64,000 nucleotides of DNA, from NCBI GenBank assembly GCA_003599145.1, contig QZIT01000005.1, positions 446,330-510,329 of the forward strand. The letters are read 5' to 3'. Positions 8,139-39,757 of the stretch are shown here, one piece after another. Numbering within the stretch: the stretch's first letter is position 1; the number at the start of each line of letters is the position of its first letter. The notes under the pieces are model-generated. The model had not been told where the DNA came from, searched no databases, and worked only from the letters and a program-made list of their open reading frames with translations. This DNA comes from Candidatus Woesearchaeota archaeon. GTDB lineage: Archaea; Nanobdellota; Nanobdellia; Woesearchaeales; UBA9642. Position numbers and translations under genes: made by a program.

Positions 8139-8690
8139 TTATTCCCTTAGAAAGCCAAACCGTTTATTTTTTTCTGTCATTTTAAGAAAATAAGCAAGGC
8201 TTTTCTGAAATGCCACCTTGCTATGTTTTCTTTGCCCTTCAAGATAGCCTATTCTTACCCTTTTATAGCTATCAGGAAAGTTTTGAAAGTGCTTCCATGC
8301 TGCATGATTTTTCTTTAGTGCTGCAAGAATATCTTTTGCAATGGCAAAGCTTTCATCTGGATTAAAATTAACTGCCGTCAATCCAAAAGAGGTCATTTTT
8401 TTCTGACCAATCAGTTTCCTTATCCGTTCTTTATTCAGTTCAGAAACAGCCCTGCTTTTTCTTGGCGTGAATCTTTGTGCAAAAGATTCTTTATCAACAG
8501 ACTTTACCGTACTGTCTATCCATCCATAGCACAGCGCTTCTTCAACAGCGTCATTGTAAGGAATTCTTTTCTTGCCAGATAACTTTGCATAATAAATCAG
8601 CCATATGTCTTTTTCCTTACGATGATTTTTTTTAAGCCAAGCACGCCATGCTCTTCTGTCCTGAACATAAAGAGTTTTTCCTATGTTCAT
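8139..8690 (-). CDS. YdeI/OmpD-associated family protein
   Basis: 183 residues matching the YdeI-like family: N-terminal R-A-W-R-A-W-L-K-K-N-H, then I-W-L-I-Y-Y, Y-N-D-A-V-E-E-A-L-C-Y-G-W-I-D-S and R-F-T-P-R-K-S-R. The family is mostly bacterial and poorly understood, and some members affect stress or peptide sensitivity. The start overlaps the end of asnS by 4 nt, so it is the second gene of that operon. Lateral transfer from bacteria is possible but not demonstrated. Confidence 0.8.
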   Translation of the reverse strand: MNIGKTLYVQDRRAWRAWLKKNHRKEKDIWLIYYAKLSGKKRIPYNDAVEEALCYGWIDSTVKSVDKESFAQRFTPRKSRAVSELNKERIRKLIGQKKMTSFGLTAVNFNPDESFAIAKDILAALKKNHAAWKHFQNFPDSYKRVRIGYLEGQRKHSKVAFQKSLAYFLKMTEKNKRFGFLRE

Positions 8691-9973
8691 GGTGTCCAGC
8701 GCAGCATTGTCCTAGGAAAAGGTATGGCATCCTTAATGTTGTCCAACTTGCAAAGCCATGCAACAACTCTTTCTATTCCTAAACCATACCCTGAATGAGG
8801 CACTGAACCGTATTTTCTCAAGTCAAAATACCAGTCGTAATGTTTAGGATTCTCTCCCATTTTTTTTAATGCCTTTGTTAACTCTTCAATATCAGTATCT
8901 CTTTGGCTTCCTCCTATAATTTCTCCATAGCCTTCAGGAGCCAGCATGTCAAAGCATAAAGCTGTTTTTTCATCGTCAGGGTCTTTTGGCTTATAGAATG
9001 CCATAATTTCCTTTGGATAATGGGTCACAATCAAAGGCTTGTCAAATTCTTCCATGATGGTATCCTCTTCAACAGTTCTTAGGTCTTTTCCCCATTTTAC
9101 TTTATCGCCTTTTTTGGCTAATCTTTCCAAAACTTCTGTATAGGTTAATCTTGGAAATGGCGCCTTAATTTTTTTCAATTTTTCAACATCCTGTCCTAAT
9201 ACTTTTAATTCCTCTTCGTTTTCCTCAACAACTTTTTTTACAATAAAGGAAACACACTCCTCTGCACTTTGCGTTAATTCCTTTAAACCTATCCATGCTG
9301 CTTCCATTTCCGCCATCCAGAATTCGCTTAAATGCCTTGAGGTTTTTGATTTTTCTGCCCTGAAACAAGGACTGATGCAGTACAGCTTTTCCAAAGCAAA
9401 GATAGATGACTCTCCATACAACTGCCATGATTGCGTTAAAAAAGTTTTTGTCTGATAATATTTTACTTCAAATAAGGTTGAACCTCCTTCGCACTGGTTT
9501 GGTTGCAGAATAGGAGGACTGAATTCATAAAATCCATGTTTATTATAAAATTCCCTAAATGCAGATAAAACCGTATGCCTTACTTTCATGACTGCAGCCA
9601 TTTTTCTGCTTCTCAGCCATAAATGCCTGTTATCGAGCAAAAATTCAGGGCTTTGATCTTTGCTGATAGGATAGGTATCAGACCATCCAATAACTTTAAA
9701 ATCATTGACGCTAATTTCAAAACCTGTCGGAGCTCGTTTATCTTCTTTAATGGTTCCATGAATTTCCATAGATGCTTCTATCTGCAGTTTATCTGCTGTC
9801 TTGAACAATTCCTCTCCAACAATATCTTTTTCAATGACGCATTGTATTATTCCTGTTGCATCTCTCAGCGTAATAAATTTTAATTTGTTTGAGCCTCTTT
9901 CTCTATAGACCCAGCCTCGTATAGCAATTTCACCGTGCTTTTTTTCTTCAGCTTGTTTTATTGATATGAACAT
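8687..9973 (-). CDS. asnS: asparaginyl-tRNA synthetase
   Basis: 428 residues, class IIb synthetase. The N-terminal OB-fold anticodon-binding domain (~1-105) is followed by the catalytic core with motif 2 F-R-A-E-K-S...H-L-S-E-F-W and motif 3 G-Y-G-L-G-I-E-R. G-E-I-I-G-G-S-Q-R and the C-terminal P-F-P-R-T favour AsnRS over archaeal AspRS. It charges tRNA-Asn directly, so the tRNA-dependent amidation route for Asn is probably not needed. An AGGTGAT SD precedes the ATG, with a TATA element at ~10002-10012. Confidence 0.92.
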   Translation of the reverse strand: MFISIKQAEEKKHGEIAIRGWVYRERGSNKLKFITLRDATGIIQCVIEKDIVGEELFKTADKLQIEASMEIHGTIKEDKRAPTGFEISVNDFKVIGWSDTYPISKDQSPEFLLDNRHLWLRSRKMAAVMKVRHTVLSAFREFYNKHGFYEFSPPILQPNQCEGGSTLFEVKYYQTKTFLTQSWQLYGESSIFALEKLYCISPCFRAEKSKTSRHLSEFWMAEMEAAWIGLKELTQSAEECVSFIVKKVVEENEEELKVLGQDVEKLKKIKAPFPRLTYTEVLERLAKKGDKVKWGKDLRTVEEDTIMEEFDKPLIVTHYPKEIMAFYKPKDPDDEKTALCFDMLAPEGYGEIIGGSQRDTDIEELTKALKKMGENPKHYDWYFDLRKYGSVPHSGYGLGIERVVAWLCKLDNIKDAIPFPRTMLRWTP

Positions 9974-10128: not shown

Positions 10129-11499
10129 TTATTTTTTCAAGCTGATTTTCAAATCATCCAATTGTCCTGGTAACACTTCAGAAGGAGCATCCATCATGAC
10201 ATCTCGTGCTTCTTTATTTTTGGGGAAAGCAACGACATCTCGAATAGACTGCTTTCCCATGACAACCATTAACGTTCTATCTATGCCTGGTGCAATGCCT
10301 CCGTGAGGAGGGGTTCCATATTTAAAAGCTTCAAGCATGTGATGGAAGTATTTTGTTTCCTTTTCCTTAAAGCCTATTAACTTAAAGATTTTTGCCTGCA
10401 ATTCAGGATTATGAATTCTGACGCTACCGCCGCCAACTTCAAAGCCATTCAACACCAAATCGTGCTGATAGCTTCTTGCTTTTTCAGGATGCGTATCTAA
10501 CAAATGAATATCATCTTCATGAGGCATGGTGAACATATGATGCTTAGGAGCATAATGTCCATGTTCTAATTCTTCTTCAAATAAAGGAAAATTAATAACC
10601 CACGCAAATGCCAATTCATCTGGATCGTCTTTATTTTTTCTTAAATCCGGTTTGTCTGTTCCGTATTTTTTAACAACATCTGTATAATTCAGTCGCGGAA
10701 ATGGCTTCTGCAAAATCTTTTTTTCAGGAAAAACATGCTCAATCATTTTTATAAAAAGCTCTTCTGTTAAATCAAGAATGTCATTTTGATGAATGAAGCT
10801 CATTTCGATATCTAGCTGATAAAATTCTCCTGGTGCTCTATCTGCTCTTGCGTCTTCGTCTCTAAAGCAGGGAGCTATTTGAAAGTATTTATCCATGCCT
10901 GCAACCATTAATAACTGTTTATACTGCTGTGGTGATTGTGGCAATGCAAAAAACTTTCCAGGATAGACTCTAGATGGAACCAGATAATCTCTTGCTCCTT
11001 CAGGAGTGCTTTTGGTTAAAATAGGAGTGGTAATTTCATAAAATCCTTTTTTATCCAGAAAACTTCTCATGAATAAAATCAGGTCGTGTCTTTTTTTCAG
11101 TACTTGCTGCAACTCTGGTTTTCTTAAATCTAAATAACGGTATTTTAACCTAGTATCTTCTGTTGCAGATTCATCTAAAGGCAATGCTTCTGCAGAACTT
11201 AAAACCTTTAACGCTTTTACTTCCAATTCAATTTCTCCTGTCAATAACTCTTTTTTGATTTGATTATCTGGTCTTTTATTAACCAAACCTTCAATCTGCA
11301 CGACGGTTTCTTTTTTTAATGAAGAAGCCTGTTCAAGGATGTCTTTTCCCAAAAAGCACTGCGTTATGCCATACCTGTCTCTTAAGAGCAAAAAACCGAT
11401 TTTTCCTGATACTCTTAAGGTGTCTATCCATCCAGCTAACGTAACGGTTTTTCCTGCATGCTCCTTTCTTAATTCACCACAGGTATGAGTTCTGAACAT
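10129..11499 (-). CDS. aspS: bacterial-type aspartyl-tRNA synthetase lacking the GAD insertion domain
   Basis: 456 residues from ATG 11499. A TATA box (CTTTATAAAC, ~11524-11533) lies ~25 nt upstream, so the in-frame extension to 11583 is not coding. The start F-R-T-H-T-C-G-E-L and the OB fold G-W-I-D-T-L-R are those of bacterial AspRS, followed by motif 1, motif 2 F-R-D-E-D-A-R-A-D-R and motif 3 G-I-A-P-G-I-D-R. Bacterial enzymes are ~590 aa with a ~150-residue GAD insertion after Y-G-S/T-D-K-P-D-L-R; here only ~10 residues separate K-P-D-L-R from A-F-A-W-V-I-N-F-P. Catalytic motifs look intact. Confidence 0.93.
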   Translation of the reverse strand: MFRTHTCGELRKEHAGKTVTLAGWIDTLRVSGKIGFLLLRDRYGITQCFLGKDILEQASSLKKETVVQIEGLVNKRPDNQIKKELLTGEIELEVKALKVLSSAEALPLDESATEDTRLKYRYLDLRKPELQQVLKKRHDLILFMRSFLDKKGFYEITTPILTKSTPEGARDYLVPSRVYPGKFFALPQSPQQYKQLLMVAGMDKYFQIAPCFRDEDARADRAPGEFYQLDIEMSFIHQNDILDLTEELFIKMIEHVFPEKKILQKPFPRLNYTDVVKKYGTDKPDLRKNKDDPDELAFAWVINFPLFEEELEHGHYAPKHHMFTMPHEDDIHLLDTHPEKARSYQHDLVLNGFEVGGGSVRIHNPELQAKIFKLIGFKEKETKYFHHMLEAFKYGTPPHGGIAPGIDRTLMVVMGKQSIRDVVAFPKNKEARDVMMDAPSEVLPGQLDDLKISLKK

Positions 11500-11523
11500 A
11501 TGACCAGGAGTTATGTTTAAGTT

Positions 11524-11557
11524 TATAAAGTTTGTTTCGTAGCAAGATTTAAATAAA
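11524..11557. promoter_or_regulatory. divergent promoters for aspS and the coiled-coil gene
   Basis: The minus strand carries CTTTATAAACTT at about 11524-11533 for aspS (ATG 11499). The plus strand carries GATTTAAATAAATG at about 11546-11557 for the gene starting at 11577. The two TATA boxes are ~20 bp apart, so the promoters may compete or be co-regulated. Confidence 0.6.
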
Positions 11558-11576
11558 TGCGAGCAATCTGCATAGG

Positions 11577-12533
11577 ATGCCATCGATAAAAAGTATATGT
11601 GACACTATACGCGTTCACGTTACCGCGGTCAGAGAGCTTATCGATGAAGCTCCTGAGAAATATAAAAAAGTCATCGTTGCATCTGCGAAAGCAACCAGCT
11701 TAGTAGTAGGACTACTTCCGGGAGGAGCAATCATCAGCATGGTTGAAGCGTTTAAAAGTGCTAATGAGGCAAAAAAATCAATCAAAGAAGCCCATAGCGC
11801 TTTAAGAGGCATACCTCCAGAAGAGCATCAACGGCAACTCGAAAAACTCCGCGAGGAAACAGACCTCGAAATCCATAACTTAAAAACCATAGCTCGTGCA
11901 GAAGAAACAGAAAGAGAAGTGCTCCAATACATTCACGTGCGGATCATTGACGCGTTGCATACAGAACATAAAGCAATGGCTCTTTTAGAAAAAGATGAAG
12001 TTGGTGAAATATTGGAACTCACCCAACAAACCGTAAAGGACGCTTCAGGAAACATTGGCAATATTCGCCCTGACTCTATCATTGCAATGATACATATGGA
12101 GCTAAAACAATTTAACATTGTTATTCAAGAGCTTCAAAATATTCAGGCCATACCGGTCATTAGGCCTGTGCAGCTTGCATTTCAGAGACTAATACAAACG
12201 CGTCAACTTTTAAAAGAGAGAGTGATGCTACTTCAGGCTCAGCAGGAAATTGATCAGACTGTAGAGGCAGAAAAAACCGATTTTTATGACATACAAAACG
12301 CAAAAAACATTTTCCAAGCACAGCTGAAGGTTTTTATTGAACATAAAGCCGCCCTCGAAAGCTTGCTTAAAGACGCGCTGACCCTATCAGGCAGAACAAG
12401 GCAGTTAAGAATGATGCTGATTGACAAGTCTTATTTTGAAGAGTTGAATGCACTCAGAAAACGGCATGAGGAAATCAACGAAAAATTATTACGAAGCTTA
12501 CTGCACATCAAAGAACAATTTATTAGAGAATAA
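11577..12533 (+). CDS. coiled-coil protein with one hydrophobic segment
   Basis: 318 residues. A hydrophobic stretch at ~33-58 (V-I-V-A-S-A-K-A-T-S-L-V-V-G-L-L-P-G-G-A-I-I) may be a membrane-associated or amphipathic helix. The remaining ~260 residues are almost entirely charged helix with long heptad-like regions, near 95-135 and 200-300. There is no catalytic motif or recognised family. It has its own TATA box divergent from aspS and converges on the metallo-hydrolase gene. A structural or membrane-remodelling role is possible but speculative. Confidence 0.7.
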   Translation: MPSIKSICDTIRVHVTAVRELIDEAPEKYKKVIVASAKATSLVVGLLPGGAIISMVEAFKSANEAKKSIKEAHSALRGIPPEEHQRQLEKLREETDLEIHNLKTIARAEETEREVLQYIHVRIIDALHTEHKAMALLEKDEVGEILELTQQTVKDASGNIGNIRPDSIIAMIHMELKQFNIVIQELQNIQAIPVIRPVQLAFQRLIQTRQLLKERVMLLQAQQEIDQTVEAEKTDFYDIQNAKNIFQAQLKVFIEHKAALESLLKDALTLSGRTRQLRMMLIDKSYFEELNALRKRHEEINEKLLRSLLHIKEQFIRE

Positions 12534-19023: not shown

Positions 19024-20553
19024 TTAGCAGGCAATCTGCTCTAATTCTGCCAACGTCTTAAATCCTTCATACGTTATTCCATCAATAACCCACGTTGGAT
19101 AGGTTGCAATGTCTTTTTCAGTACATTGATTTGCCTGCGAGTTTTCTATATTAGGGTCACATTCAATATAGTTCAGCTCAATAAAGGCATTTCCGAAAAC
19201 ATCCTTCTGCTTTTTTACATCTGCTTTCCAATAGGCACCATAAAGTTCTGCATTTTTGGCATTCAAGCAGGATGCAATTTCATCAGCAGTCTTTGTTTGT
19301 TGCTGAACTTGGATTGGCTCCTGAACCTGTTGCTGGCTTTGTTCAGTCTGTTTAATCACGTTTCCCTGAATTTGCACTCCATCAAAGCGCTCAACCACTG
19401 CAGAACGTCTTAGCTGCTCAACGAGCTCAACATAGGCCTGTTCCTGCTTTGTAAAAAGAATGGTTTCTCTTATTTTTTCCTCAACCTCTTCAAGAGGCAT
19501 TTGCACCTCTTCAGTTCTATCCAATAACTGCATAAAATGATGCCCAAATTGAGTCTGCACGATGGTTGTTTCATTGATGCCTAAATCAAATGCGGCATCT
19601 TCAAACTCTGCAACCATGACGCCTCTTGCAAATGTATACTGTCCGCAGTTGTCCATGCTTCCTGGATCTTCAGAATAGTCTGCTACAAGCTCACAAAAAT
19701 CAGTGCCATTGTCGAATTCCTTTTTGATCTGCTGTATCACTGCTGCACTGTCGTTTCCTGTAACCAAAACATGTCTTACTAAAACTTCTTCAGGCGTTAC
19801 AAATAAACTGCTTTGTTCATCATAGTAATCCTGAATCTCTGCATCAGTTACCGCAATATCCTTAAAAACAGTTTTATTCAGCAGCTTGTCTACAAGCATT
19901 CTTTTTCCAGAAAGCTCCTGAAAGTATTCTAGTGTAATGCCATTATTAGTAAGCTCTGTTTTGAACTGCTCAAAGGTTAAGTTGTTTTCTTCAAGAATAG
20001 CATCGATAAAGTCATCCACTTCAGTAGTCAGCACAACTCCTTGTTTCTTTGCTTCCTGCAGCAACAAAACCTCATCGATGGTCTGATTCAGCAAGATTTC
20101 AGGCGTAAACAACTGTTTGTACAGTGGATTTAACGCATTGTAACGTTTGTCTAAATCTGACTGCTTAATGGGCTCACCGTTCACTTTTGCAAGGGTTTTA
20201 TCATCAACAGCCGGAGCGCTGAATTTCCAGATGACAATGACAATAGCAATAACAATGGCTGCAATCAAAACAATCCATGGCCAGATAGGCGTAGATTTTT
20301 TTCTTTTTTCTTCTTTAGTTGCCTTCTTAACCACGACTTTTTTTCGAACGCTGTGCCTTTTTACAGGTTTAGCCTGTATAGGCTTCTGCTTCATAACTGG
20401 CTTAATGGGAGTTATTGGTTTTCTAACAGGTGCTTCCTGCGGCTCTTCATCAAGATCGATTTTTTCCGCATCAAAATCGGGCTCTTCAAATTCAACAGAA
20501 TTCTTATAGATATTGTCGTTTTCCTCGTAAGGAGCTTCTTTTTCCAATTTCAT
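19024..20553 (-). CDS. membrane-anchored SurA/PrsA-like parvulin with C-terminal thioredoxin-like domain
   Basis: 509 residues from ATG 20553; a GTG at 20571 lies within a strong GGGGGTGAGG SD. After an acidic-then-basic cytoplasmic N-terminus comes one TM helix (~90-112), a SurA-N-like helical chaperone domain, and a parvulin rotamase domain (V-L-V-R-H-V-L-V, D-F-C-E-L-V-A-D-Y-S-E-D-P-G-S, F-G-H-H-F-M-Q-L). The last ~85 residues resemble the thioredoxin-like region linked to VKOR proteins (T-Y-P-T-W-V-I-D-G, several Cys). It should assist folding of exported proteins outside the membrane. Confidence 0.85.
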   Translation of the reverse strand: MKLEKEAPYEENDNIYKNSVEFEEPDFDAEKIDLDEEPQEAPVRKPITPIKPVMKQKPIQAKPVKRHSVRKKVVVKKATKEEKRKKSTPIWPWIVLIAAIVIAIVIVIWKFSAPAVDDKTLAKVNGEPIKQSDLDKRYNALNPLYKQLFTPEILLNQTIDEVLLLQEAKKQGVVLTTEVDDFIDAILEENNLTFEQFKTELTNNGITLEYFQELSGKRMLVDKLLNKTVFKDIAVTDAEIQDYYDEQSSLFVTPEEVLVRHVLVTGNDSAAVIQQIKKEFDNGTDFCELVADYSEDPGSMDNCGQYTFARGVMVAEFEDAAFDLGINETTIVQTQFGHHFMQLLDRTEEVQMPLEEVEEKIRETILFTKQEQAYVELVEQLRRSAVVERFDGVQIQGNVIKQTEQSQQQVQEPIQVQQQTKTADEIASCLNAKNAELYGAYWKADVKKQKDVFGNAFIELNYIECDPNIENSQANQCTEKDIATYPTWVIDGITYEGFKTLAELEQIAC

Positions 20554-20627
20554 CACCTGCCATTTCCTCACCCCCTCGATGGGAAAAAAATGACAAGATA
20601 TATAAATATTTTGCTTTTAAAATAAGT

Positions 20628-29522: not shown

Positions 29523-30119
29523 ATGAATGAAGAATTAATTGTCTCAAATGATGACTACCTAAAATCTGGCATCCATATAGGTACCAAGTTCAAGACAAAG
29601 TATATGGAGCGGTTTATTTACAAAACCAGAAGCGATGGACTTTCTGTACTGAATATCCAGCAAATCAACGAGCGCATCAAACAGGCTATCAACATGCTGA
29701 GCAATTATGCTCCTCAAGATATCATTGTTGTTTCCAGAAGGGAAAATGGATGGAAGCCTGTAAAATTGTTTGGAAAATTAACAGGTGCAAAAGTATTTGC
29801 AGGCAGATACCCTCCAGGAATACTGACGAATCCTGCATTGGAAAACTTTATTGAAGGTAAAATCATGCTCGTAACTGATGCATGGCCTGATAAAAATGCA
29901 GTGCTTGACGCTTTAAAAGTAGGCATTCCCGTTATTGCCTTATGCGATACCAACAATCAAAGCAATAATATTGATTTAGTGGTTCCCTGCAACAACAAGG
30001 GAAAGAAAAGCCTTGGCTTGTTCTTCTGGATAGTAACCAAGCAGTATATGCTTAAAAGGGAATTGATAAAAAGCGCTGAAGAGTTTACCTATAAAATAGA
30101 TGATTTCACAGAAGATTAA
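29523..30119 (+). CDS. rpsB: 30S ribosomal protein S2 (uS2)
   Basis: 198 residues with archaeal/eukaryotic S2 features: Y-L-K-S-G-I-H-I-G-T-K near the N-terminus, the G-R-Y-P-P-G-I-L-T-N-P segment and V-T-D-A-W-P-D-K-N-A-V-x-D-A. It binds at the small-subunit head-body junction and is needed for S1/mRNA-side function. In many archaea rpsB sits with rpoN/rpoK/eno; here it stands alone, convergent with radB. Its last codons overlap the radB 3' end by 4 nt. Confidence 0.95.
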   Translation: MNEELIVSNDDYLKSGIHIGTKFKTKYMERFIYKTRSDGLSVLNIQQINERIKQAINMLSNYAPQDIIVVSRRENGWKPVKLFGKLTGAKVFAGRYPPGILTNPALENFIEGKIMLVTDAWPDKNAVLDALKVGIPVIALCDTNNQSNNIDLVVPCNNKGKKSLGLFFWIVTKQYMLKRELIKSAEEFTYKIDDFTED

Positions 30120-30787
30120 GCTTCTATAATACCTTCATCAACAATCTTAAAAATGACACTTTTTCCTTCTTCAATAGAGCGATGTTTTTGAATCGTTGCC
30201 TTGCGCAACCCAGGTGAAATTTTTTGCAATTCAATAAGGCACTTGCTCTGGTACCTTAATAAATCCCCGCCAACCATGTGAACTTTTTCTTTGTTTTCAA
30301 AATCCGCGTACACCTGATTGGTAATAAGAACAGGAATGTTTCTTTTTCTGGCTATTTCCGTAATATACCCTAACTGCAGCCCTAGTGTTCTATTGACCGT
30401 GTACACATCGTTTGCTTGCCCCAATTCCAGTCTGTACAGCATGGCAATGCTATCAACAACAATCAACCCGACTTTATCATCAACAATTTTTTTGAGCAGT
30501 TCAAATGCCTTCTTCTGTTCATCATAGGTCGTAGGATTTAAAAAAACAACCCGCTTCAAGGCTTCTTTATAATCCGGACAAATCTGCTTGAATCTTGCTA
30601 TGCTAAACGAGCCTTCTGTGTCAATATAAATAACTTTTTTAGTAGAACTCGCTATGCATAAAAGACACAAATTAGTTTTGCCGCTTCCTGCAGGGCCGTA
30701 AATAGTGGTAATGGCGTCTTTTTCATAGCCTCCTTCTAACAGCCAGTCCATGGCTGTTGTTCCTGTGCTCACTTTTGTTTCTTTCAT
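30116..30787 (-). CDS. radB: RadB, RecA/RadA-family recombination protein
   Basis: 223 residues, the core-only archaeal RadA paralogue. Walker A is G-P-A-G-S-G-K-T-N (~31-39), Walker B is L-I-V-V-D-S-I-A-M (~105-113), with a D-Y-K-E-A-L region and loop L2 (G-G-D-L-L-R-Y-Q). It lacks the N-terminal HhH domain of RadA. RadB assists homologous recombination and may mediate RadA loading. Confidence 0.92.
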   Translation of the reverse strand: MKETKVSTGTTAMDWLLEGGYEKDAITTIYGPAGSGKTNLCLLCIASSTKKVIYIDTEGSFSIARFKQICPDYKEALKRVVFLNPTTYDEQKKAFELLKKIVDDKVGLIVVDSIAMLYRLELGQANDVYTVNRTLGLQLGYITEIARKRNIPVLITNQVYADFENKEKVHMVGGDLLRYQSKCLIELQKISPGLRKATIQKHRSIEEGKSVIFKIVDEGIIEA

Positions 30788-30905: not shown

Positions 30906-32381
30906 ATGAAAGTAGGAAAGCATGAAATTATTCTTGCAGTCATTTTTTGTCTTGTATTAACTGCAAGGTTGCTGTTGGCATTCTCATCAAGCGAATTCAC
31001 GTTTGAAAGCTATTTCTCCATCAGGCAAATTGAGCATATCAAGGAAACAGGATTGCCGCTCTACCATGATGCCCTGAGTTATGGAGGCAGGGAGTATTTT
31101 TTCCCCCCTTTATTTCATTACCTGCTTGCAGGGTTCAGCTTTCTCATTCCCTTTTTTTACACGCTTAAAATCATTCCTAACATCTTTGCAGCATCCCTTG
31201 TGCTTATTGTCTATTTTTTTTCGCTCAAGCTTACAGAGAACAGGACTGTCGCTCTCATCACCTGTTTTTTTGCAGGGTTTATTCCTATTTTTCTTGCAGA
31301 AAGCCTTTCTGTATCGCTTGAATCATTTTATCTTCCTGTTTTTTTCCTGATTCTCTATTTATGCGTCGACATGACTGAAAAGAACATCACGATTATTTTG
31401 CTGTTAACCATCGTACTGGTACTCACGAGCGCAATCTCTATTATTCTGGTTATCTCTCTTTTGCTCTACCTGCTTTTTACAAAAATAGAGGGCATGAGCC
31501 CCTCAAAAAGAGAAGTTGAAGTTGTGCTTTTTTCAACGTTTCTTGCAGTCTGGGCAAATCTCATCCTCTATAAAAAAGCACTGATAGCACACAACGTGCT
31601 TATTATCACGCAAAACATACCAACAACCATCATCACTCAATTTTTTAGCAATCTGACGTTTGTTGAGTCTTTTTATACCATAGGCATTGTCACCCTGTTG
31701 CTAGGCCTTTATGGCATTTACTATGCACTAAAAACAAAAAAGAAAGAGGCATTTGCACTCACAAGCTCTGTTGCAACGTTTTTTGTACTACTGCTTGTCA
31801 AGCTTATTCCTCTTCATATAGGCCTGATGTTTATAGGCATTGCGCTGGTGCTTCTTTCTTCTCTCGCACTCAAAGAAATCATGGAAAAGCTAAGCAACGT
31901 TAAATTTACCAAAGCACCATCTACATTCATTGCATTTATCCTTATGCTCTTTATTGGATTGACCATACTTCCGGGATTGAGCCTTACCGTAAACACGGCA
32001 ATTCCGACAGCAGAGGAAAAAGAGGCATGGCTCTGGCTCAAAGAAAACAGTCCGGAAGATGCAACCATACTTGCTTCAGAAGTTGAAGGCCACGCCATAA
32101 ATTATTACACCCATCGAAAAAACGTCATCGATACTAACTTTTTGTTGGTGAGGGATATTGACAAAATAGTTTCAGATGTCCACACCCTGTACGCTACGCC
32201 GTTTTTAACAGAGGCATTGCCTCGCTTGCAACTGTATCACATAAGCTATATCATGATGAGCCCTCGCATTACAGAGCACATGAACATAGAGAAATTACAG
32301 TACGGCGATGCCCGATGCATCACGCCTGTTTATACGACAACAATAACTATTTATAAGGTGGGTTGCGATGAAAATTCCTGA
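30906..32381 (+). CDS. STT3/AglB-like GT-C membrane protein without WWDxG
   Basis: 491 residues from ATG 30906; a TATA box at ~30873-30885 supports it and opens the glycan locus. About ten TM helices are followed by a ~100-residue soluble tail. The first loop (E-S-Y-F-S-I-R-Q-I-E-H-I-K-E-T-G-x-P-L then D-A-L-S-Y-G-G-R and P-P-L-F-H-Y-L-L-A) and the tail start (A-W-L-W-L-K-E-N-S-P-E-D-A) resemble AglB/STT3 oligosaccharyltransferases. At the place of the catalytic-domain WWDYG motif it reads A-S-E-V-E-G-H-A. A different or lost transferase activity on a lipid-linked sugar is inferred. Confidence 0.75.
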   Translation: MKVGKHEIILAVIFCLVLTARLLLAFSSSEFTFESYFSIRQIEHIKETGLPLYHDALSYGGREYFFPPLFHYLLAGFSFLIPFFYTLKIIPNIFAASLVLIVYFFSLKLTENRTVALITCFFAGFIPIFLAESLSVSLESFYLPVFFLILYLCVDMTEKNITIILLLTIVLVLTSAISIILVISLLLYLLFTKIEGMSPSKREVEVVLFSTFLAVWANLILYKKALIAHNVLIITQNIPTTIITQFFSNLTFVESFYTIGIVTLLLGLYGIYYALKTKKKEAFALTSSVATFFVLLLVKLIPLHIGLMFIGIALVLLSSLALKEIMEKLSNVKFTKAPSTFIAFILMLFIGLTILPGLSLTVNTAIPTAEEKEAWLWLKENSPEDATILASEVEGHAINYYTHRKNVIDTNFLLVRDIDKIVSDVHTLYATPFLTEALPRLQLYHISYIMMSPRITEHMNIEKLQYGDARCITPVYTTTITIYKVGCDENS

Positions 32382-33759
32382 AAAAACGCAAGTCTTTCTG
32401 CTCATTGTGCTGTGCACGCTCGTTTTGTTAGCTCCTGGAACAATAAGAACCTTGCAAAAGAATCCTCTGCCCTACGGAGCAGAAACAGCGTACGCAAGCA
32501 GAATCCTTCAGCAGAATCAATATGACCCTGTCCAAGAGAGGCCGACAACATTCAATCTTCTTTTTTACGGAGTTTCCCGCATATCGTTTATGGAACAAGC
32601 CATGCTCTTGAAGCTTCTGCCATTTGTCTTGGGAATGCTCTCTATGTTAATGCTTTTCCTGCTGCTGCGGAAAGAAAGGAACTACCTGTTTATTATTTTT
32701 CTATTCATTGCCTCGCCCGTGTTTATTTACGTGTTCTCGTCACTCAACGCATTAAGTGCAATCATCTTCCTCAATCTTTTAGGATTTTTCATTTTTCTTC
32801 AGAAACGCGGATGGCTTTCCTGTTTCGTGTTTGCCATCATACCCTTTATTGATGTTCTGGCTTTTTTCCTGACAGCAATTCTGCTCATGAGTTATGCAGT
32901 CTATCAAAAGTACAAAATTAGAGATGTATACATCATCATTGTAGTATCGCTTCTTCCGCTCATGTACATGATTACCCAAAATACCATCAGCATCCACCAG
33001 TATTTCGACCTTACAGGCATTCATGAATTATTTGTTGAATTTGGAGTTCTTGCAGGCATTTCCCTGCCTCTTTTGATCCTTGCCATTATAGGAATTGCCA
33101 TCAAGTGGCCGCAGCAGCGACTGCTTTTTGCAGCATATCTGCTGTTGATACTTTTTTTCATAGGCGCTATGTATTCAACCATGATAACCATCTATCTTGG
33201 GTTTTTGCTTCCTTTTTTCGGAGGATTTGCCTTGAGGTATTTTCTGGAGCGAAAATGGTCCATTCAAGTGCTGCGAAACATCACCCTTTTACTGATATTC
33301 TGCAGCCTGCTGTTCTCCGTCATTTCGTTTGTAGATCAAACAACGCAGGAAAAACCAAATCCTGAGATGGTTCATGCCTTAACTATCCTTAAAGACTTTT
33401 CAGACAAGCAGGAACTTGTTTTTTCTTCTCCTCAAAACGGCTTCTTCATAGAGAAATATGCAGAGCGTAAAGCATTCCTTGACGGAAAATCCTATGAATA
33501 TCCTGATTACACTATAAAAAAAGAAACATACGAAACGCTCATTGCATCAAGAAACTTTGAAACGACCAGTGCGCTTCTTGAAAAAAACAACATCCAGTAT
33601 TTCTATATAGATACGCAGATGAAGCAACAACTTTGGAATAACAGAGAGGACGGATTGCTTTTTTTGCTGATGCGCAGCAGAAACTTTGTCAGGATTTATG
33701 CATCTGCAGATATCGAAATATACCAATATGTAAAGCTATCTGAACAGCAAAATATATAA
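32368..33759 (+). CDS. second GT-C-like membrane protein of the STT3-like pair
   Basis: 463 residues. It overlaps the previous gene by 14 nt. The same layout is seen: one N-terminal TM helix, a loop with P-Y-G-A-E-T-A-Y-A-S-R, about nine further TM helices and a ~120-residue C-terminal soluble domain. The WWDxG motif is absent. It is probably a diverged relative of the preceding gene and may form a heteromer with it. No substrate can be assigned. Confidence 0.68.
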   Translation: MKIPEKTQVFLLIVLCTLVLLAPGTIRTLQKNPLPYGAETAYASRILQQNQYDPVQERPTTFNLLFYGVSRISFMEQAMLLKLLPFVLGMLSMLMLFLLLRKERNYLFIIFLFIASPVFIYVFSSLNALSAIIFLNLLGFFIFLQKRGWLSCFVFAIIPFIDVLAFFLTAILLMSYAVYQKYKIRDVYIIIVVSLLPLMYMITQNTISIHQYFDLTGIHELFVEFGVLAGISLPLLILAIIGIAIKWPQQRLLFAAYLLLILFFIGAMYSTMITIYLGFLLPFFGGFALRYFLERKWSIQVLRNITLLLIFCSLLFSVISFVDQTTQEKPNPEMVHALTILKDFSDKQELVFSSPQNGFFIEKYAERKAFLDGKSYEYPDYTIKKETYETLIASRNFETTSALLEKNNIQYFYIDTQMKQQLWNNREDGLLFLLMRSRNFVRIYASADIEIYQYVKLSEQQNI

Positions 33760-33781: not shown

Positions 33782-34222
33782 ATGCTTATTGAAATTTTTA
33801 TCATCACCATTCTTGCCATGATTGCTACAGGATTTTGGGAAGCGTACATGGAAGGGGCACACCCATGGGCAGAGCAGCAGGTCGGATGGACAATACAAAT
33901 TACGAAAAGCTACTCCTTAACCGCATATCATTTTTTTGCTTTTTGGATTATGTTTCCCTTGCTTCTCATAGTATTTCCGATGGTGCTGTTGGGATTTTCG
34001 TGGCAACTTCTAGGAATAACCATCAGCGCTTTCAGTGTGGGATTACTCGTTGAGGATTTTACCTGGTTTTTAGTAAATCCAAAATTTCCTCTCAGAAATT
34101 TTAACAGCGCAAACGTGAAATGGTACAGCTGGTTAAAATTAGGAAAATTTGAAATTCCCCTTGGCTACGTGATAGGCATAGTCATCAGTATTGCATCCTG
34201 GTTTTTTCTTTGGAGACCATGA
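33782..34222 (+). CDS. four-TM membrane protein, 146 aa
   Basis: It follows the GT-C gene by 22 nt, with a TATA-like sequence overlapping the preceding stop. Four TM helices are visible (roughly 1-20, 42-65, 70-90, 122-143), with conserved-looking W-E-A-Y-M-E-G-A-H-P-W-A-E between the first two and an aromatic loop (V-K-W-Y-S-W-L-K-L). No family is recognised; its place in the locus suggests a role in envelope assembly. Confidence 0.65.
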   Translation: MLIEIFIITILAMIATGFWEAYMEGAHPWAEQQVGWTIQITKSYSLTAYHFFAFWIMFPLLLIVFPMVLLGFSWQLLGITISAFSVGLLVEDFTWFLVNPKFPLRNFNSANVKWYSWLKLGKFEIPLGYVIGIVISIASWFFLWRP

Positions 34223-34659
34223 ATACCGACTTTCTTGACTTCAACAAGCAAATTTTTTTTGGCGAACTGGGCTCTCTGCTGGGAGCTCCTCTCTTTGGAG
34301 TGCTATGCTCAAGGCTGAATAACAGCCCTACAGCGATTGCAACATGGAGTGTTCTTGGCTCTTTAGCAGGAGCTGCAGTGTTTTGGCTTGCGGTAAGAAT
34401 CATCGATGAAAAAAGAAAAAAAAGATTATCAGTGAAAAACATCGCTGAAACCATCGCATGGTATACGCCTATTGCATTTATTTTAGCCATTTTTCTGTAC
34501 CAGCCAGTATTATTTTTCTTGAGCAAACACTTTTTAGAGCAAAGCGGCTTGGTCATTGTTTCCATCATAGGCGCACAAGCGCTTGCCTTTTTGAGTTTTT
34601 TAATAGTCATCAATGCTTACCGGATAATTATTAACCGATACACGGGAAAAAAGCTCTGA
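34219..34659 (+). CDS. four-TM membrane protein, 146 aa (GtrA-like layout)
   Basis: The start at ATG 34219 overlaps the previous stop as ATGA; a TTG nine bases upstream is in frame but not needed. Four TM helices separated by short basic loops (K-R-K-K-R-L) follow an acidic N-terminus (D-F-L-D-F-N-K-Q-I-F-F-G-E-L-G). The arrangement recalls the GtrA/flippase-like group in glycan loci, but there is no decisive motif. Confidence 0.62.
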   Translation: MNTDFLDFNKQIFFGELGSLLGAPLFGVLCSRLNNSPTAIATWSVLGSLAGAAVFWLAVRIIDEKRKKRLSVKNIAETIAWYTPIAFILAIFLYQPVLFFLSKHFLEQSGLVIVSIIGAQALAFLSFLIVINAYRIIINRYTGKKL

Positions 34660-34711: not shown

Positions 34712-35980
34712 ATGGAATTTTTTAAGATTATCATCTGGATAGCGTACTTTATCGGATTATATATTGCCATCTTTTTCCTGATGCATTTTCTTGATGTCAA
34801 GGCTTCATTAAAAAAAGACAAAGAGCAAAAGCCTCTGCTCAAAACACACCCTTTGGTTTCTGTTGTTATTCCTGCATTCAATGAAGAGAAAAGCATACGC
34901 ATGACCCTTGAATCTGCGCTTGCGCTTGATTATCCAAAAGACAAAGTGGAAATCCTTGTCATCAATGATTGTTCAACAGACAGGACAGCAGAGATTGTCA
35001 AAGCAGTTATCACAGAGCATAGCAATAGGTCCATCAAGCTGGTCAATAACCCTGTCAACAAAGGCAAAGCAACGTCTATGAACCTTGCCATGAACATGCT
35101 CAAAGGAGAGTATTTTGCCTGTCTTGACGCAGATTCCATCGTAGATAAAGATGCACTTAAAAACAGCATGTATACGCACCAGCAAGAAAAGCCTGCAATA
35201 GTCACGCCCGTCATGAAAGTAAACAACCCAAAAACGCTGTTGCAGAAATTCCAAAGACTGGAATATGTAACGGCGATGTTCGTCGCAAATCTTGTCGGCT
35301 ACTTGGATTGCAATTATGTCGCACCAGGGCCTTTTTCCGTCTATAAAACAAAAATCATCAAAGACGTTGGAGGGTTTGACGAAAAAAGCATTGTAGAAGA
35401 CCAAGAAATAGCCTACAGAGTGCAGGCAAAGCATTATAAAATAAAACAATGCCCGAGAGCATTTGTCAATACCATCACCCCCGAAAATTTTGAAGGGTTC
35501 AAGAAGCAAAGGAACCGGTGGTCTAAGGGAACGCTGTTAAACCTGCTGAAGTATAAACGGATGTTTTTAAATAAAAAATACGGCGATTTCGGAGTGTTTC
35601 AACTTCCTCTTAATGTACTTTACTTTTTGCTTTCCATGCTCGTCATGACTTCCTTCTTTTATTATATTGTCAGACCTTTTTTCAACGCAATCTATAATCT
35701 TTATCTCATCAATTTTGACGTCCTGCCTTATCTGAAAAGCTTCACCTATTCTTTTAATCCTCTTCAGATCGATATCACCAGCACCTTCATCATTTATCTC
35801 AGCCTTATCCTTAGCATCATGGTTCTGTATTTAGCAAGCAGGATGGGCAACGAAAGTGTAAAAAAATACGGGCTCGTATCTATCATCCCTTATTTCATTA
35901 TGTACTTCGTGATTACGAGTTTTATCAATGTCCAAGTATTATGGGAGCTTGCTGTGGGAAGGAAAACGCAAAAATGGTAA
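34712..35980 (+). CDS. processive-type GT2 glycosyltransferase with TM helices
   Basis: 422 residues: one N-terminal TM helix, a GT-A domain (V-V-I-P-A-F-N-E-E-K-S ~50-60; D-A-D-S metal-binding ~140; E-D-Q-E-I-A-Y-R-V ~230; Q-R-N-R-W, the QxxRW motif, ~270) and three or four C-terminal TM helices. This is the architecture of cellulose synthase/hyaluronan synthase-like GT2 enzymes, which polymerise and export a polysaccharide. Product unknown. TATA at ~34667-34677 gives it its own promoter within the locus. Confidence 0.88.
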   Translation: MEFFKIIIWIAYFIGLYIAIFFLMHFLDVKASLKKDKEQKPLLKTHPLVSVVIPAFNEEKSIRMTLESALALDYPKDKVEILVINDCSTDRTAEIVKAVITEHSNRSIKLVNNPVNKGKATSMNLAMNMLKGEYFACLDADSIVDKDALKNSMYTHQQEKPAIVTPVMKVNNPKTLLQKFQRLEYVTAMFVANLVGYLDCNYVAPGPFSVYKTKIIKDVGGFDEKSIVEDQEIAYRVQAKHYKIKQCPRAFVNTITPENFEGFKKQRNRWSKGTLLNLLKYKRMFLNKKYGDFGVFQLPLNVLYFLLSMLVMTSFFYYIVRPFFNAIYNLYLINFDVLPYLKSFTYSFNPLQIDITSTFIIYLSLILSIMVLYLASRMGNESVKKYGLVSIIPYFIMYFVITSFINVQVLWELAVGRKTQKW

Positions 35981-36669
35981 GAAAGGTAAAAAGGAAAATC
36001 AGCACAGAAAAGTTTGTTCTTGTAGGCATTATTGCACTCATTATTTTTTTGCTGGGCCTCAGTTTAGGCATGATTATCGACAATGAACGCGTGCGCTGGG
36101 CAAATATGGAGTATCGCAATCAACAGCTAGACTATGAAAGCATTCAGTTGCAGTATCTTTATCTGCAGGCAACTGATGATAAGAATGAAAGCTGCTCAGC
36201 ACTCTATACCAGCCTTGAACAGGCCTTGACTGATTTAGGAACTTCACTGGAAGAAGTGCTTGGCTATCAAAAGGATACGACGCTGAATAAGGACGAGTTC
36301 CTCAACATTGAGAGACGATACATGATTGACAATTTCAAGTATTGGCTCCTCGTTAAAAAGGCAAAGACAGAATGCTCGGTTGATGCCATAACCGTTCTTT
36401 ATTTCTATTCTGAAACCAACTGCGAAATTTGTTCAGAACAGGGAATTATTTTAACGCTCTTCAAGAAAAAATACGGGGAAAAGCTTTTGATTTTTCCCAT
36501 TAATGTAGACTTAGAGAGCCAAGAGCCGTTCATAACCATCATCAGGGAAACCTATGATGTCGAACAATATCCAAGCATCGTTGTTGAAGGAGAAACCTAT
36601 TCTGGAATTGTTGCCAAAGACCAATTGGCGAACATTTTTTGCAATGAAAACAGCGGATTTTGTGAGTAA
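35974..36669 (+). CDS. membrane-anchored thioredoxin-fold protein (CxxC)
   Basis: 231 residues from ATG 35974, overlapping the GT2 stop. A basic N-terminus leads to one TM helix (~15-37) and a helical stretch, then a thioredoxin-like domain with active-site-like C-E-I-C (~155) and a cis-Pro-like Y-P-S-I-V-V (~205). Further Cys near the C-terminus (F-C-N-E-N-S-G-F-C) could pair. It may form or isomerise disulfides in exported proteins, and its place in the glycan locus ties it to surface-protein maturation. Confidence 0.72.
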   Translation: MVRKVKRKISTEKFVLVGIIALIIFLLGLSLGMIIDNERVRWANMEYRNQQLDYESIQLQYLYLQATDDKNESCSALYTSLEQALTDLGTSLEEVLGYQKDTTLNKDEFLNIERRYMIDNFKYWLLVKKAKTECSVDAITVLYFYSETNCEICSEQGIILTLFKKKYGEKLLIFPINVDLESQEPFITIIRETYDVEQYPSIVVEGETYSGIVAKDQLANIFCNENSGFCE

Positions 36670-36670
36670 C

Positions 36671-37381
36671 ATGAACCTGAGCGTTGTCATTCCAACCTAC
36701 AATGAATCTGAGAACATCAAAAAGCTCATCGCGGAAATTGCAAAAGTTCTCAAGAAGCAGTATGCCATTATCATAGTAGATGATAGCAGCCCTGATGGCA
36801 CTGCAAAACTCGCAGAAGAGATGAGCAGGAAATTTCCTATCACCGTCATCAAGAGAAAAGGGAAGAAAGGGCTGAGCAGTGCTGTTATAGCAGGCATCAA
36901 CGGCTCGAAAAGCAATCTTGTTTGCGTCATGGATGCAGATTCGAGCCACCCTCCGGCATTGCTGAAAAAAATGAGAACTGCATTTGAAAACGATTCCTCT
37001 TTGGAAATGGCTATTGCCAGCAGGCACGTCTCGGGAGGAGGAGTGAAACAATGGCCTCTGCACCGAAAGCTCACTTCTGCAATAGCCGCAGTCCTCGCCA
37101 GGCCGTTGACGGAAATAAAAGACCCGCTTTCCGGATTTTTCATGTTCAAAAAAAGCATTATCAAAAACAAAAAGCTGCATGACCGCGGATTTAAAATACT
37201 CTTAGACATTATTGTTAAATCCAACGCAAAACGCATTATAGAAATTCCTTATCTCTTTGAAAACAGAAAAAGAGGAAAAAGCAAGCTTAAAATAAAAGTC
37301 TATGGAGAATATCTTGCTCACCTCGGAGCATTGTACCTCTATGCGCTCAAAAAAAAGAGAATGAACCGTGGAAGAACTTAA
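36671..37381 (+). CDS. DPM1-like dolichyl-phosphate sugar synthase (GT2)
   Basis: 236 residues from ATG 36671, which follows the previous stop; the extension to 36554 lies inside that gene. The GT-A domain has V-V-I-P-T-Y-N-E-S-E-N-I, V-D-D-S-S-P-D-G-T and M-D-A-D-S-S-H-P-P, and D-P-L-S-G-F-F near 158. It closely follows soluble DPM1 without TM helices. It should transfer mannose or another hexose to dolichyl phosphate, supplying lipid-linked sugar to the GT-C enzymes of the locus. Confidence 0.88.
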   Translation: MNLSVVIPTYNESENIKKLIAEIAKVLKKQYAIIIVDDSSPDGTAKLAEEMSRKFPITVIKRKGKKGLSSAVIAGINGSKSNLVCVMDADSSHPPALLKKMRTAFENDSSLEMAIASRHVSGGGVKQWPLHRKLTSAIAAVLARPLTEIKDPLSGFFMFKKSIIKNKKLHDRGFKILLDIIVKSNAKRIIEIPYLFENRKRGKSKLKIKVYGEYLAHLGALYLYALKKKRMNRGRT

Positions 37382-38813
37382 AAAAATATTTCAAGAAAAC
37401 AAGGAAATCATCATTATTGTTGCTATTTTTCTCGCCCTCAGAATAGCATCGATGTTCAGATACCATATTCCCATATGGGATGAGGCAGTATACTATGGCA
37501 TGGGAAAATATCTCTATTCCTTAGGAAGCATGGGGCTGTGGGAAGATATACGGCCTATTGTTCTTCCCTTGATTCTGGGTTTTTTCTGGAAAATAAACAT
37601 GCCCTGGGCACTTACAGAGATTGTTCCTGTATTTTTTTCAACAGCAACATTGCTTATGACGTACATCCTCGGAAAAAAACTTTTCAACAAGGATGTTGGC
37701 GCACTTGCTGCTTTTTTGCTTGCCATCACACCTATTTTTCACCTCTATACGCCATATTATCTGACAGAAATTCCTGCAACATTCTTTTCTCTTCTTGCAC
37801 TGTACTGGTTTCTTGAGGCACGATATTTTTTATCAGGGATTGCCGCAGGCGTTGCATTTCTCACCAAGTTTTATGTCGGGCTTATCGTTGTCAGCATAGG
37901 ATTGCTCATCATCAGCCAAGCATTCCAAAAAACGAAAAAAGCAATCCTGCGAAACATAATGAAAACAGGCCTTCTTTTTTGCCTTGGTTTTTTCATTCTC
38001 TTTTTTCTTTTCGGGCTATTTAATTATTTTATGTATCCGAGGGAAAATTTTGCCCATTCTGCATTTCACACGTTCATCATGGCATTTCCCCATCAGGCAA
38101 ACCCGTTTGAAACTATCGCCATGACCGATACTGCATCAACGCTGTTCAATATTTTTTATTATCCTCTAGAACTTTTTAAAAGCAACTACATCATTCTTGC
38201 GGCCATCCCTGCACTATTCTTTCTGCTCAGAAAAAAGCACCTTGAAAAAACACTTCCCGTGCTCCTTCCTTTGCTCATAGGCATTGCCTATTTAAGCGTC
38301 ATTCCCAATAAACAATTGCGATTTGCAATAATGGTTGTTCCCTTCCTCTGCATGCTCGTCAGTGTTGGAATGCTGCGAATAGTCCAGCAGTTGAAAAAAA
38401 GAACCGTGGTGAAGGCAACCGTGGTCATTATTTTTTCAATGCTCATCATGGCAAACCTTATCACCCTGTCAGGGTATTTTTTCTGGAAACCTGCAACACA
38501 GCCGCTTGTTGTTCAGGAACTCTACAGCAATCTTCCCCAAGGCACGGTGCTCACTTCAGACCCCGTTTTTTCCGTCTATAACAACAATCGCTTCATTCCC
38601 TACTACTATTCTGCCGAAGCTGCAGAAAAGATTTTTCAGGAAGAGCTGAAAAAAACAAGCATCATTATCTACGACGACCGTTCCTTGACCTGCTATGGAG
38701 AAGATCCTGCCTGCACAGGCAAGGTAGCCGATGTAAAAGCAATAATAGGACAGCACGTCTTGTTCAAAAAATATGAATATCAAAGCAACACATATTATCT
38801 GTATACCGTATGA
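37368..38813 (+). CDS. ArnT/PMT-like GT-C glycosyltransferase
   Basis: 481 residues with a GTG start overlapping the DPM1-like gene by 14 nt. About eleven TM helices are seen. Loop 1 has P-I-W-D-E-A-V-Y-Y, matching the catalytic D-E of PMT/ArnT proteins, and Y-Y-L-T-E-I-P-A-T-F-F the second conserved helix motif. A soluble C-terminal domain has paired Cys (C-Y-G-E-D-P-A-C). It should use dolichyl-phosphate sugar, plausibly from the adjacent DPM1-like protein, to modify lipid or surface protein. Confidence 0.82.
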   Translation: MEELKKIFQENKEIIIIVAIFLALRIASMFRYHIPIWDEAVYYGMGKYLYSLGSMGLWEDIRPIVLPLILGFFWKINMPWALTEIVPVFFSTATLLMTYILGKKLFNKDVGALAAFLLAITPIFHLYTPYYLTEIPATFFSLLALYWFLEARYFLSGIAAGVAFLTKFYVGLIVVSIGLLIISQAFQKTKKAILRNIMKTGLLFCLGFFILFFLFGLFNYFMYPRENFAHSAFHTFIMAFPHQANPFETIAMTDTASTLFNIFYYPLELFKSNYIILAAIPALFFLLRKKHLEKTLPVLLPLLIGIAYLSVIPNKQLRFAIMVVPFLCMLVSVGMLRIVQQLKKRTVVKATVVIIFSMLIMANLITLSGYFFWKPATQPLVVQELYSNLPQGTVLTSDPVFSVYNNNRFIPYYYSAEAAEKIFQEELKKTSIIIYDDRSLTCYGEDPACTGKVADVKAIIGQHVLFKKYEYQSNTYYLYTV

Positions 38814-39016: not shown

Positions 39017-39757
39017 ATGATGCTTTCCGTTATTATCCCTGCAAAGAACGAACAGCGCTATTTGCAGAGACTTCTTGAATCCCTCAAACAACAATCACTG
39101 CAACCATCTCAAATCATCATCGCAGATGCGCAATCCAAAGATAAAACGATCAGTTTGGCAAAACGCTACGGCTGCGCGATTGTCAAAGGAGGTTTCCCAT
39201 CTGTAGGAAGGAATCGAGGCGCAAGCATCGCAAAAGGCAAATGGCTGCTCTTTCTCGATGCAGATACCCTGCTCATAAACAAAGGGTTCTTAAAGAACAT
39301 GATTGCCTATCTGCAAAAAAAAGAGATTGATCTTGCATTATTTGACAATATCCCCGTCTATAAAGAAAATGAGAAAGGATACGCCTCACGTATGATACGA
39401 ATAGCAGATGCTCTTATTTATTTTTTTCACAACACAGCACAAAAGGTTTTTTCCGCAACGCCTTTTCCTTTTGGAACAGGAACAGGCATCGTGTGCAGCA
39501 ACGCGCTGTTCAAAAAAACACAGTTTGACGAGCGCATAGAGGCGTTTGAAGATTGTGATTTTATAACCAGAGCGTCCTGGCACGGCAAGCTCAGGGTTAT
39601 TCCGCGGACGCTCTGCAGCTTGGGAGTTTCAACAAGGAGGTATGACAAAAAAGGAAGGATTTTTTTCCCAGTAAAAATCGCATTCGCAGGATTAATAGGA
39701 AGATTCTTAGTGGGCAGAAGCTGCGGCAGAGGCTATTTTAAAAATGCTAAATCTTGA
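39017..39757 (+). CDS. GT2 family glycosyltransferase
   Basis: 246 residues. GT-A signatures are S-V-I-I-P-A-K-N-E at the start, D-A-D-T in L-F-L-D-A-D-T-L (~87) and E-A-F-E-D-C-D-F (~175). It fits the short soluble GT2 group that adds a sugar to a lipid carrier or protein. A TATA-like element at ~38990-38999 precedes it. The 3' end overlaps the convergent MBF1 gene by 11 bp. Confidence 0.85.
   Translation: MMLSVIIPAKNEQRYLQRLLESLKQQSLQPSQIIIADAQSKDKTISLAKRYGCAIVKGGFPSVGRNRGASIAKGKWLLFLDADTLLINKGFLKNMIAYLQKKEIDLALFDNIPVYKENEKGYASRMIRIADALIYFFHNTAQKVFSATPFPFGTGTGIVCSNALFKKTQFDERIEAFEDCDFITRASWHGKLRVIPRTLCSLGVSTRRYDKKGRIFFPVKIAFAGLIGRFLVGRSCGRGYFKNAKS

Follow-up and report, generated by a model that had tools for sequence, protein, structure and literature searches.

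Paired STT3-like GT-C proteins without the WWDxG motif and their neighbouring genes in Woesearchaeales archaea

A 64,000-nucleotide stretch from a Candidatus Woesearchaeota archaeon (GenBank assembly GCA_003599145.1, contig QZIT01000005.1, positions 446,330 to 510,329 of the forward strand), designated here as the window, includes two adjoining genes whose products, P1 and P2, resemble the oligosaccharyltransferase (OST) proteins STT3 and AglB and have no WWDxG motif. What would such a pair do in a cell? The explanation preferred here, which is given about an even chance of being right, is that P1 and P2 form a heteromeric complex of glycosyltransferase C (GT-C) proteins working in a surface-glycan module. 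P1 would be the catalytic subunit using polyprenyl-phosphate donors, P2 would be non-catalytic, and the complex would not be an N-oligosaccharyltransferase.

The P1-P2 pair and its predicted fold

The longest open reading frame (ORF) of P1 (30822..32381, + strand) encodes 519 aa, and the residue numbers below follow it. An in-frame ATG at 30906 corresponds to residue 29. Because the homologues mostly start near this residue and the model is less reliable over residues 1-30, 30906 is probably the true start, which gives a protein of 491 aa. P1 has about 11 transmembrane helices followed by an external C-terminal domain. P2 (32368..33759, + strand, 463 aa) is a paralogue of P1 that overlaps its end; the two ORFs share 14 bases, including the stop codon of P1.

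AlphaFold models were built from alignments of 36 family members for P1 (the window and 35 of 36 confirmed loci, L095 being excluded) and 32 for P2 (the window and 31 of the 36, P2 being cut or missing in the others). All 36 loci come from metagenome-assembled genomes labelled Woesearchaeota, Nanoarchaeota, Nanoarchaeia or archaeon. The models (pLDDT 90.8 and pTM 0.87 for P1, 91.1 and 0.88 for P2) match STT3, AglB and PglB across their whole length, the soluble tail included. With Foldseek, the first 22 matches of the P1 model are all STT3, AglB, PglB or DPY19 (best 7oci_F, E 3.5e-13), and the best match of the P2 model is an OST catalytic subunit (8age_A, E 7.7e-9). In pairwise comparison with VIA-align, P1 is closest to STT3 (8agb_A, Z 27.5, rmsd 3.5, 461 residues aligned), followed by AglB of Archaeoglobus fulgidus (AfAglB, Z 24.6), PglB (22.9), DPY19 (21.6), ArnT (21.4) and PMT (20.9). 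P2 aligns with STT3 8age_A at Z 23.5 (rmsd 4.0, 444 residues), and with the C-terminal domain of AglB-S2 at Z 13.1. Independently of the models, a comparison of the family profiles with all PDB sequences also placed STT3, AglB and PglB first (best E 3.9e-9 for P1 and 4.9e-5 for P2). A GT-C fold of the STT3 type with a C-terminal core domain is thus well supported, as a prediction, for both proteins, in line with the reading of the window made earlier from its letters and ORFs (the sequence-only reading), which had also recognized the two ORFs and their layout correctly.

This likeness is not reflected in the curated families. In the window, neither P1 nor P2 matches a Pfam or NCBIfam model over its cut-off, and PF02516 is absent from the families matched at E 0.01 by 25 P1 and 25 P2 members. 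The AglB/STT3 core models PF22627 and PF21436 are matched by two and one of the 25 P2 members, respectively (best E 0.0018). No curated family names the pair, though it is nearly universal in the order Woesearchaeales, and no account of it was found in literature searches covering titles and the openings of abstracts.

After removal of five duplicate loci, 71 non-redundant P1 loci were compared. In 67 of them P1 is immediately followed by P2, always on the same strand, and the two genes overlap or are separated by fewer than 30 bases in 61 of the 67. Among the four remaining loci, three (L062, L077 and L152) stop within about 1 kb past P1, and L064 has other genes there. A match was found in 82 (P1) and 80 (P2) of 99 relatives, and the P1 profile matched 314 of the 371 genomes in a sample of the phylum, many of them weakly. 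Outside the order, about 37 strong loci were counted by eye, and P2 adjoins P1 in all of the best 20.

When the family profiles built for this analysis were compared with one another, P1 and P2 matched each other best (E 1.3e-63). In a midpoint-rooted tree of 46 hand-picked rows, P1 and P2 each occupy one side of a branch supported at 100/99, and both sides hold members from inside and outside the order; the duplication is therefore older than the order, and the pair predates the separation of Woesearchaeales from other orders in its class. Support for placing P1 and P2 together to the exclusion of AglB is weak (81/36), and the branches of P2 are longer than those of P1. The gene overlap, the constant adjacency and the parallel trees lend indirect support to the heteromer that the sequence-only reading had proposed. 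Judging from the PDB titles, Pmt1-Pmt2 and EmbA-EmbB are complexes that each join two related GT-C chains; they are not close to P1-P2 in sequence.

A canonical AglB, which the sequence-only reading had suggested looking for, is present elsewhere in the 1.3-Mb source genome: the single PF02516 match is a 996-aa AglB that carries WWDFG (G000:C4). P1-P2 as a stand-in for an absent AglB was rejected on this ground. P1 was still found in 9 of the 11 relatives that have no PF02516 match, so the pair is independent of AglB, and a role as obligate AglB subunits was rejected as well. The AglBs of the order are mostly 900-1200 aa long, in contrast to about 490 aa for P1 and 463 aa for P2.

Motif loss and conserved residues

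Motifs were counted among 80 P1 and 77 P2 homologues, after removal of ORFs shorter than 450 aa for P1 or 400 aa for P2, of low-scoring sequences and of sequences whose C-terminal stretches were identical. None of the 80 and none of the 77 has WWDxG, in contrast to 30 of the 31 AglBs of the same order, in which the exception (L102) is the shortest ORF with 592 aa. The absence is thus a state of the whole family and not a chance loss; both a motif hidden further along the proteins and a loss peculiar to the source genome were rejected. In P1, W-L-K-E-N-S-P-E-D-A is followed by A-S-E-V-E-G-H-A (residues 418-425), which the profile comparison aligns to S-W-W-D-Y-G of STT3, confirming what had been noticed from the sequence alone; the residues A-S-E-V-E-G at 32073..32090 (+ strand) stand at the position of the AglB motif. 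The consensus of the P1 family there is x-x-E-E-G-H, with an acid at 421 in 51 of 80 and at 422 in 67 of 80. The corresponding residues of P2 are S-S-P-Q-N-G (33424..33441, + strand), and the P2 profile aligns S-H-Y-S-N-G to W-W-D-Y-G of PglB.

According to passages of PMC8342417, OSTs carry two DXD motifs and a TIXE or SVSE motif in addition to WWDYG. The acid of the first DXD is retained in P1: Glu62 in loop 1 (31005..31007, + strand) aligns with the first-DXD Asp of STT3/AglB, and an acid is found in this exact column in 62 of 80 homologues and within columns 57-63 in 79 of 80. Seven-column windows equally rich in acids number 25 of 483 in P1 and are grouped at five places. The other two sites are lost, which goes beyond the sequence-only reading. 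At the second DXD, P1 has S165-L-E167 (31314..31322, + strand), with an acid in 0 of 80 at 165, where Ser or Thr occupies 72 of 80, and in 11 of 80 at 167. The place of the TIXE loop is taken by T-Q-N-I-P (31608..31622, + strand; WQNIP in the family), in which Asn265 is conserved in 79 and Pro267 in 80 of 80, and the column aligned to the TIXE Glu is acidic in just 7 of 80. The string T[VI]xE (x being A, G, S or Q) occurs in 4 of 80 P1 and 2 of 77 P2 homologues versus 31 of 31 AglBs. In summary of the likeness, P1 and P2 share with AglB, STT3 and PglB the predicted fold, the loop-1 acid and a YxxxR helix, and, as profile alignment shows, the W-x-N common in loop 5 of P1 is also present in AglBs of the order, while WWDxG, the second DXD and the TIXE/SVSE Glu are missing and the two chains are tandem paralogues.

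Other residues are strictly kept in P1. Asp83 of the motif DxLSYGGR (31068..31070, + strand), Tyr64, Pro155, Pro267, Cys499 and Cys515 are each invariant (80/80), and Arg49, Lys116 and Glu233 nearly so. The loci L062-L097 were retrieved by the motif [YF][NHD]DxLSYGGR, and these columns are therefore biased there; among the 50 rows without these loci, Asp83 is also invariant (50/50). The basic residues Arg49, Arg68, Arg90 and Lys116 would lie on the external side, as suggested by the order of helices in the model. Cys499 and Cys515 (32316..32366, + strand) stand on either side of the last beta hairpin, which the model places at residues 500-513, and a disulfide between the two is likely.

The C-terminal 65 residues or so of P1 relatives match TIGR03662 (Chlor_Arch_YYY) in 18 of 25 members (best E 1.8e-11), and P1 of the window does not match. 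In the members inspected the match covers the tail only and is far under the 300-bit cut-off. To our knowledge, TIGR03662 is a membrane family of no known function, and a literature search on it returned nothing on the point.

The two proteins differ in what they conserve. At least 90% conservation is observed in 31 columns of P1, seven of them charged, and in nine columns of P2, none of them charged. This asymmetry suggests one catalytic and one non-catalytic subunit, and it supports different roles for the two proteins.

Neighbouring genes

Four genes of interest lie downstream of the pair, all on the + strand; the recurrence of a GT2 and a thioredoxin among such neighbours had not been noticed in the sequence-only reading. 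GT2a (34712..35980) encodes a membrane glycosyltransferase of family 2 (GT2) that belongs to the cellulose-synthase/PgaC type and carries the DxD, ED and QxxRW motifs. TRX (35974..36669) encodes an N-terminal transmembrane anchor and a thioredoxin-like domain with C-E-I-C (36421-36432). GT2b (36554..37381, the true start probably later) is a GT2 that weakly matches AglJ and ArnC-type polyprenyl-phosphate sugar transferases. GTC3 (37368..38813) is a third GT-C protein, of the PMT_2 type (PF13231, E 2.9e-8, over the cut-off).

Neighbours were counted in the 60 of 71 loci in which four or more genes follow downstream, the other 11 having too few. A GT2 gene lies within five genes in 56 of them, a thioredoxin gene in 54 and both in 53; GTC3 lies within six genes in 29. 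In some loci, the GT2 and thioredoxin genes are found together on the opposite strand, and the link thus survives inversion. Among the best 20 of about 37 loci outside the order, a strong GT2 and a thioredoxin accompany the pair in 17; of the exceptions, two (L174 and L179) lie at the end of a contig and the third, L170, has no thioredoxin. In the GT2 family, DxD and ED are invariant and QxxRW is kept in 58 of 59. Its best NCBIfam model is PgaC, below the cut-off, and its best PDB matches are 6yv7, followed by bacterial cellulose synthase; 6yv7 is presumably a crenarchaeal GT2, whose paper mentions a minimal cellulose-synthase-like fold in the title. The thioredoxin has an N-terminal anchor, with CxxC in 47 of 55, and phmmer found nothing better than E 0.05 for it among PDB sequences. 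The GT2 neighbours agree with the suggestion of the sequence-only reading that the pair processes a lipid-linked glycan. Its other suggestion, that the pair may act on an acceptor without a sequon, would be compatible with the findings.

An extracellular thioredoxin next door, a GT2 whose nearest PDB match is 6yv7, and a fold and domain layout nearest to STT3/AglB would also be expected if P1-P2 were a true OST variant, taking its glycan from a pyrophosphate-linked donor to a non-sequon acceptor on a protein and assisted by the thioredoxin in the manner of Ost3/Ost6. The metal site argues against it: the ligands of AfAglB are D47, D161 and H163, with E360 through water, as given in part of PMC8342417, and in P1 the acids at column 165 and at the TIXE Glu are those found above to be lost. 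This reading is considered quite improbable.

Nor need P1-P2 be an enzyme at all. Both proteins may be GT-C scaffolds on which a lipid-linked glycan or another substrate is bound for the GT2 and GTC3 proteins, in the way of PIG-U, which has a scaffold role in the glycosylphosphatidylinositol (GPI) transamidase. The loss of three OST hallmark sites, the lack of conserved charged residues in P2 and the presence of GTC3, with its strict loop-1 Asp, in nearly half of the loci all fit this reading, and the U subunit of GPI transamidase is among the fold matches of P1 and P2. Its Z of 12-13 is far below that of STT3, however, and the invariant Asp83, the nearly invariant Arg49, Lys116 and Glu233 and the widely kept loop-1 acid of P1 are more than a scaffold would need. 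A purely scaffolding role is possible and on the whole unlikely.

The proposed role and its significance

In the preferred explanation, the two products of this old tandem duplication, both of predicted STT3-like fold, would act together on the outer side of the membrane. P1 would be catalytic, as it keeps the loop-1 acid and the external-face residues Arg49, Tyr64, Arg68, Asp83, Lys116 and Asn265. Since the second DXD, the TIXE Glu and WWDxG are lost, metal-dependent transfer of a pyrophosphate-linked glycan is disfavoured, and P1 should not glycosylate the Asn of N-x-S/T from such a donor. More likely, it would pass a sugar or a chain from a polyprenyl-phosphate donor on to some other acceptor and, in a manner similar to DPY19, do so independently of the OST metal site. 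As described in part of PMC10154233, DPY19 is a metal-independent GT-C enzyme that uses Dol-P-Man (dolichyl phosphate mannose) and has a catalytic Glu71 in loop 1. DPY19 shares with P1 the STT3-like fold and an acid in loop 1, and P1 may share its independence from the OST metal site; the sequence match is weak (PF10034 in one of 25 P1 members, E 0.0043), and the likeness covers neither the donor nor the Trp acceptor. P2, fast-evolving and without conserved charged residues, would most likely be non-catalytic and shape the binding of the acceptor. GT2a may make a chain or a lipid-linked precursor inside, which P1-P2 would transfer outside, and GT2b may make a polyprenyl-phosphate sugar. The exported thioredoxin may tend the disulfides of the GT-C tails or of the acceptors, with Cys499-Cys515 of P1 as a possible client.

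Several observations weigh against this reading. The Pfam model most common among P1 members is PMT_2 (10 of 25, E down to 7.7e-7) and not STT3, and both profiles are closer to GTC3 (E 4.3e-22 for P1 and 5.8e-25 for P2) than to AglB (1.4e-13 and 6.5e-18). OST ancestry therefore does not follow from the STT3-like fold. The loop-1 acid of P1 is off its column in 18 of 80 homologues and absent from the stretch in L163, whereas the loop-1 Asp of GTC3 is stricter (100%, 37/37 rows). In P2, acids are present in loop 1 in 66 of 77 and in loop 5 in 64 of 77, the latter being Glu224 of the external-loop motif S-D-L-G (33037..33039, + strand; Asp or Glu), and P2 may thus not be inert. CxxC is missing from 8 of 55 thioredoxins. 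Moreover, 14 of the 17 relatives (of 99) that lack P1 have the thioredoxin family (E <1e-25), which is thus not tied to the pair; a thioredoxin specific to P1-P2 was rejected. In these loci the thioredoxin is mostly together with a GT2, and a GTC3-like gene lies beside them in nine of 13 (L188-L199 and L201); the fourteenth, L200, has a P2 fragment at a contig end. The core of the module thus appears to be GT2 and thioredoxin with GT-C enzymes, P1-P2 being the commonest but not the sole GT-C part.

The first two of these points are also what would be seen if P1 and P2 were ordinary PMT_2-type (GT39-like) enzymes acting on a lipid or surface glycan, with no meaning in their pairing. Four of 25 P2 members match PMT_2 weakly as well, and many GT-C proteins share such tails. 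PMT_2-type enzymes and ArnT have a GT-C fold and would be expected to share the polyprenyl-phosphate donor. On the other side, the pair is conserved inside and outside the order with each partner in one clade, P1 of the window matches PF13231 at 15.5 bits, below the cut-off of 26.1, and P2 has no such match over it either; STT3 is a closer fold match than either ArnT or PMT, and the loop-1 acid of P1 is less strictly placed than the Asp of GTC3. An ordinary PMT_2-type pair is considered improbable.

A bolder form of the preferred explanation, tentative and rather unlikely, is a second OST-shaped machine in this DPANN lineage that is not for N-glycosylation: an STT3-fold heterodimer with one catalytic chain and an Ost3/Ost6-like thioredoxin subunit, to which a cellulose-synthase-like GT2 would feed a chain for a non-sequon protein or lipid acceptor. 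If so, the OST architecture of an STT3 fold with thioredoxin would have arisen or been kept for other chemistry. Many DPANN archaea are thought to live in contact with other cells, and their surface glycans are hardly known. A conserved module of defined genes makes this surface chemistry testable, and setting P1-P2 beside the AglB that this genome also encodes can reveal how the GT-C fold shifts its donor and acceptor.

Other genes of the window

Two small hydrophobic ORFs lie between P2 and GT2a (33782-34222 and 34210-34659, + strand); neither matches a Pfam model over its cut-off, and a comparison of 76 neighbourhoods revealed no relatives. A further GT2 gene adjoins the module (39017-39757, + strand), with TIGR04283 as its best NCBIfam model at half of the cut-off. 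Divergently upstream of P1 lies a gene that we take to be RadB-like (30116-30787, - strand); such a gene is found upstream in 41 of 67 loci, often with another gene beyond, presumably that of uS2. Elsewhere, the window includes two adjoining class II aminoacyl-tRNA synthetase genes of the D/K/N family (8687-9973 and 10129-11583, - strand), a SurA-like PPIC-type prolyl isomerase (19024-20571, - strand), and a 945-aa protein with four CARDB repeats (43-2880, + strand), which is probably a surface protein.

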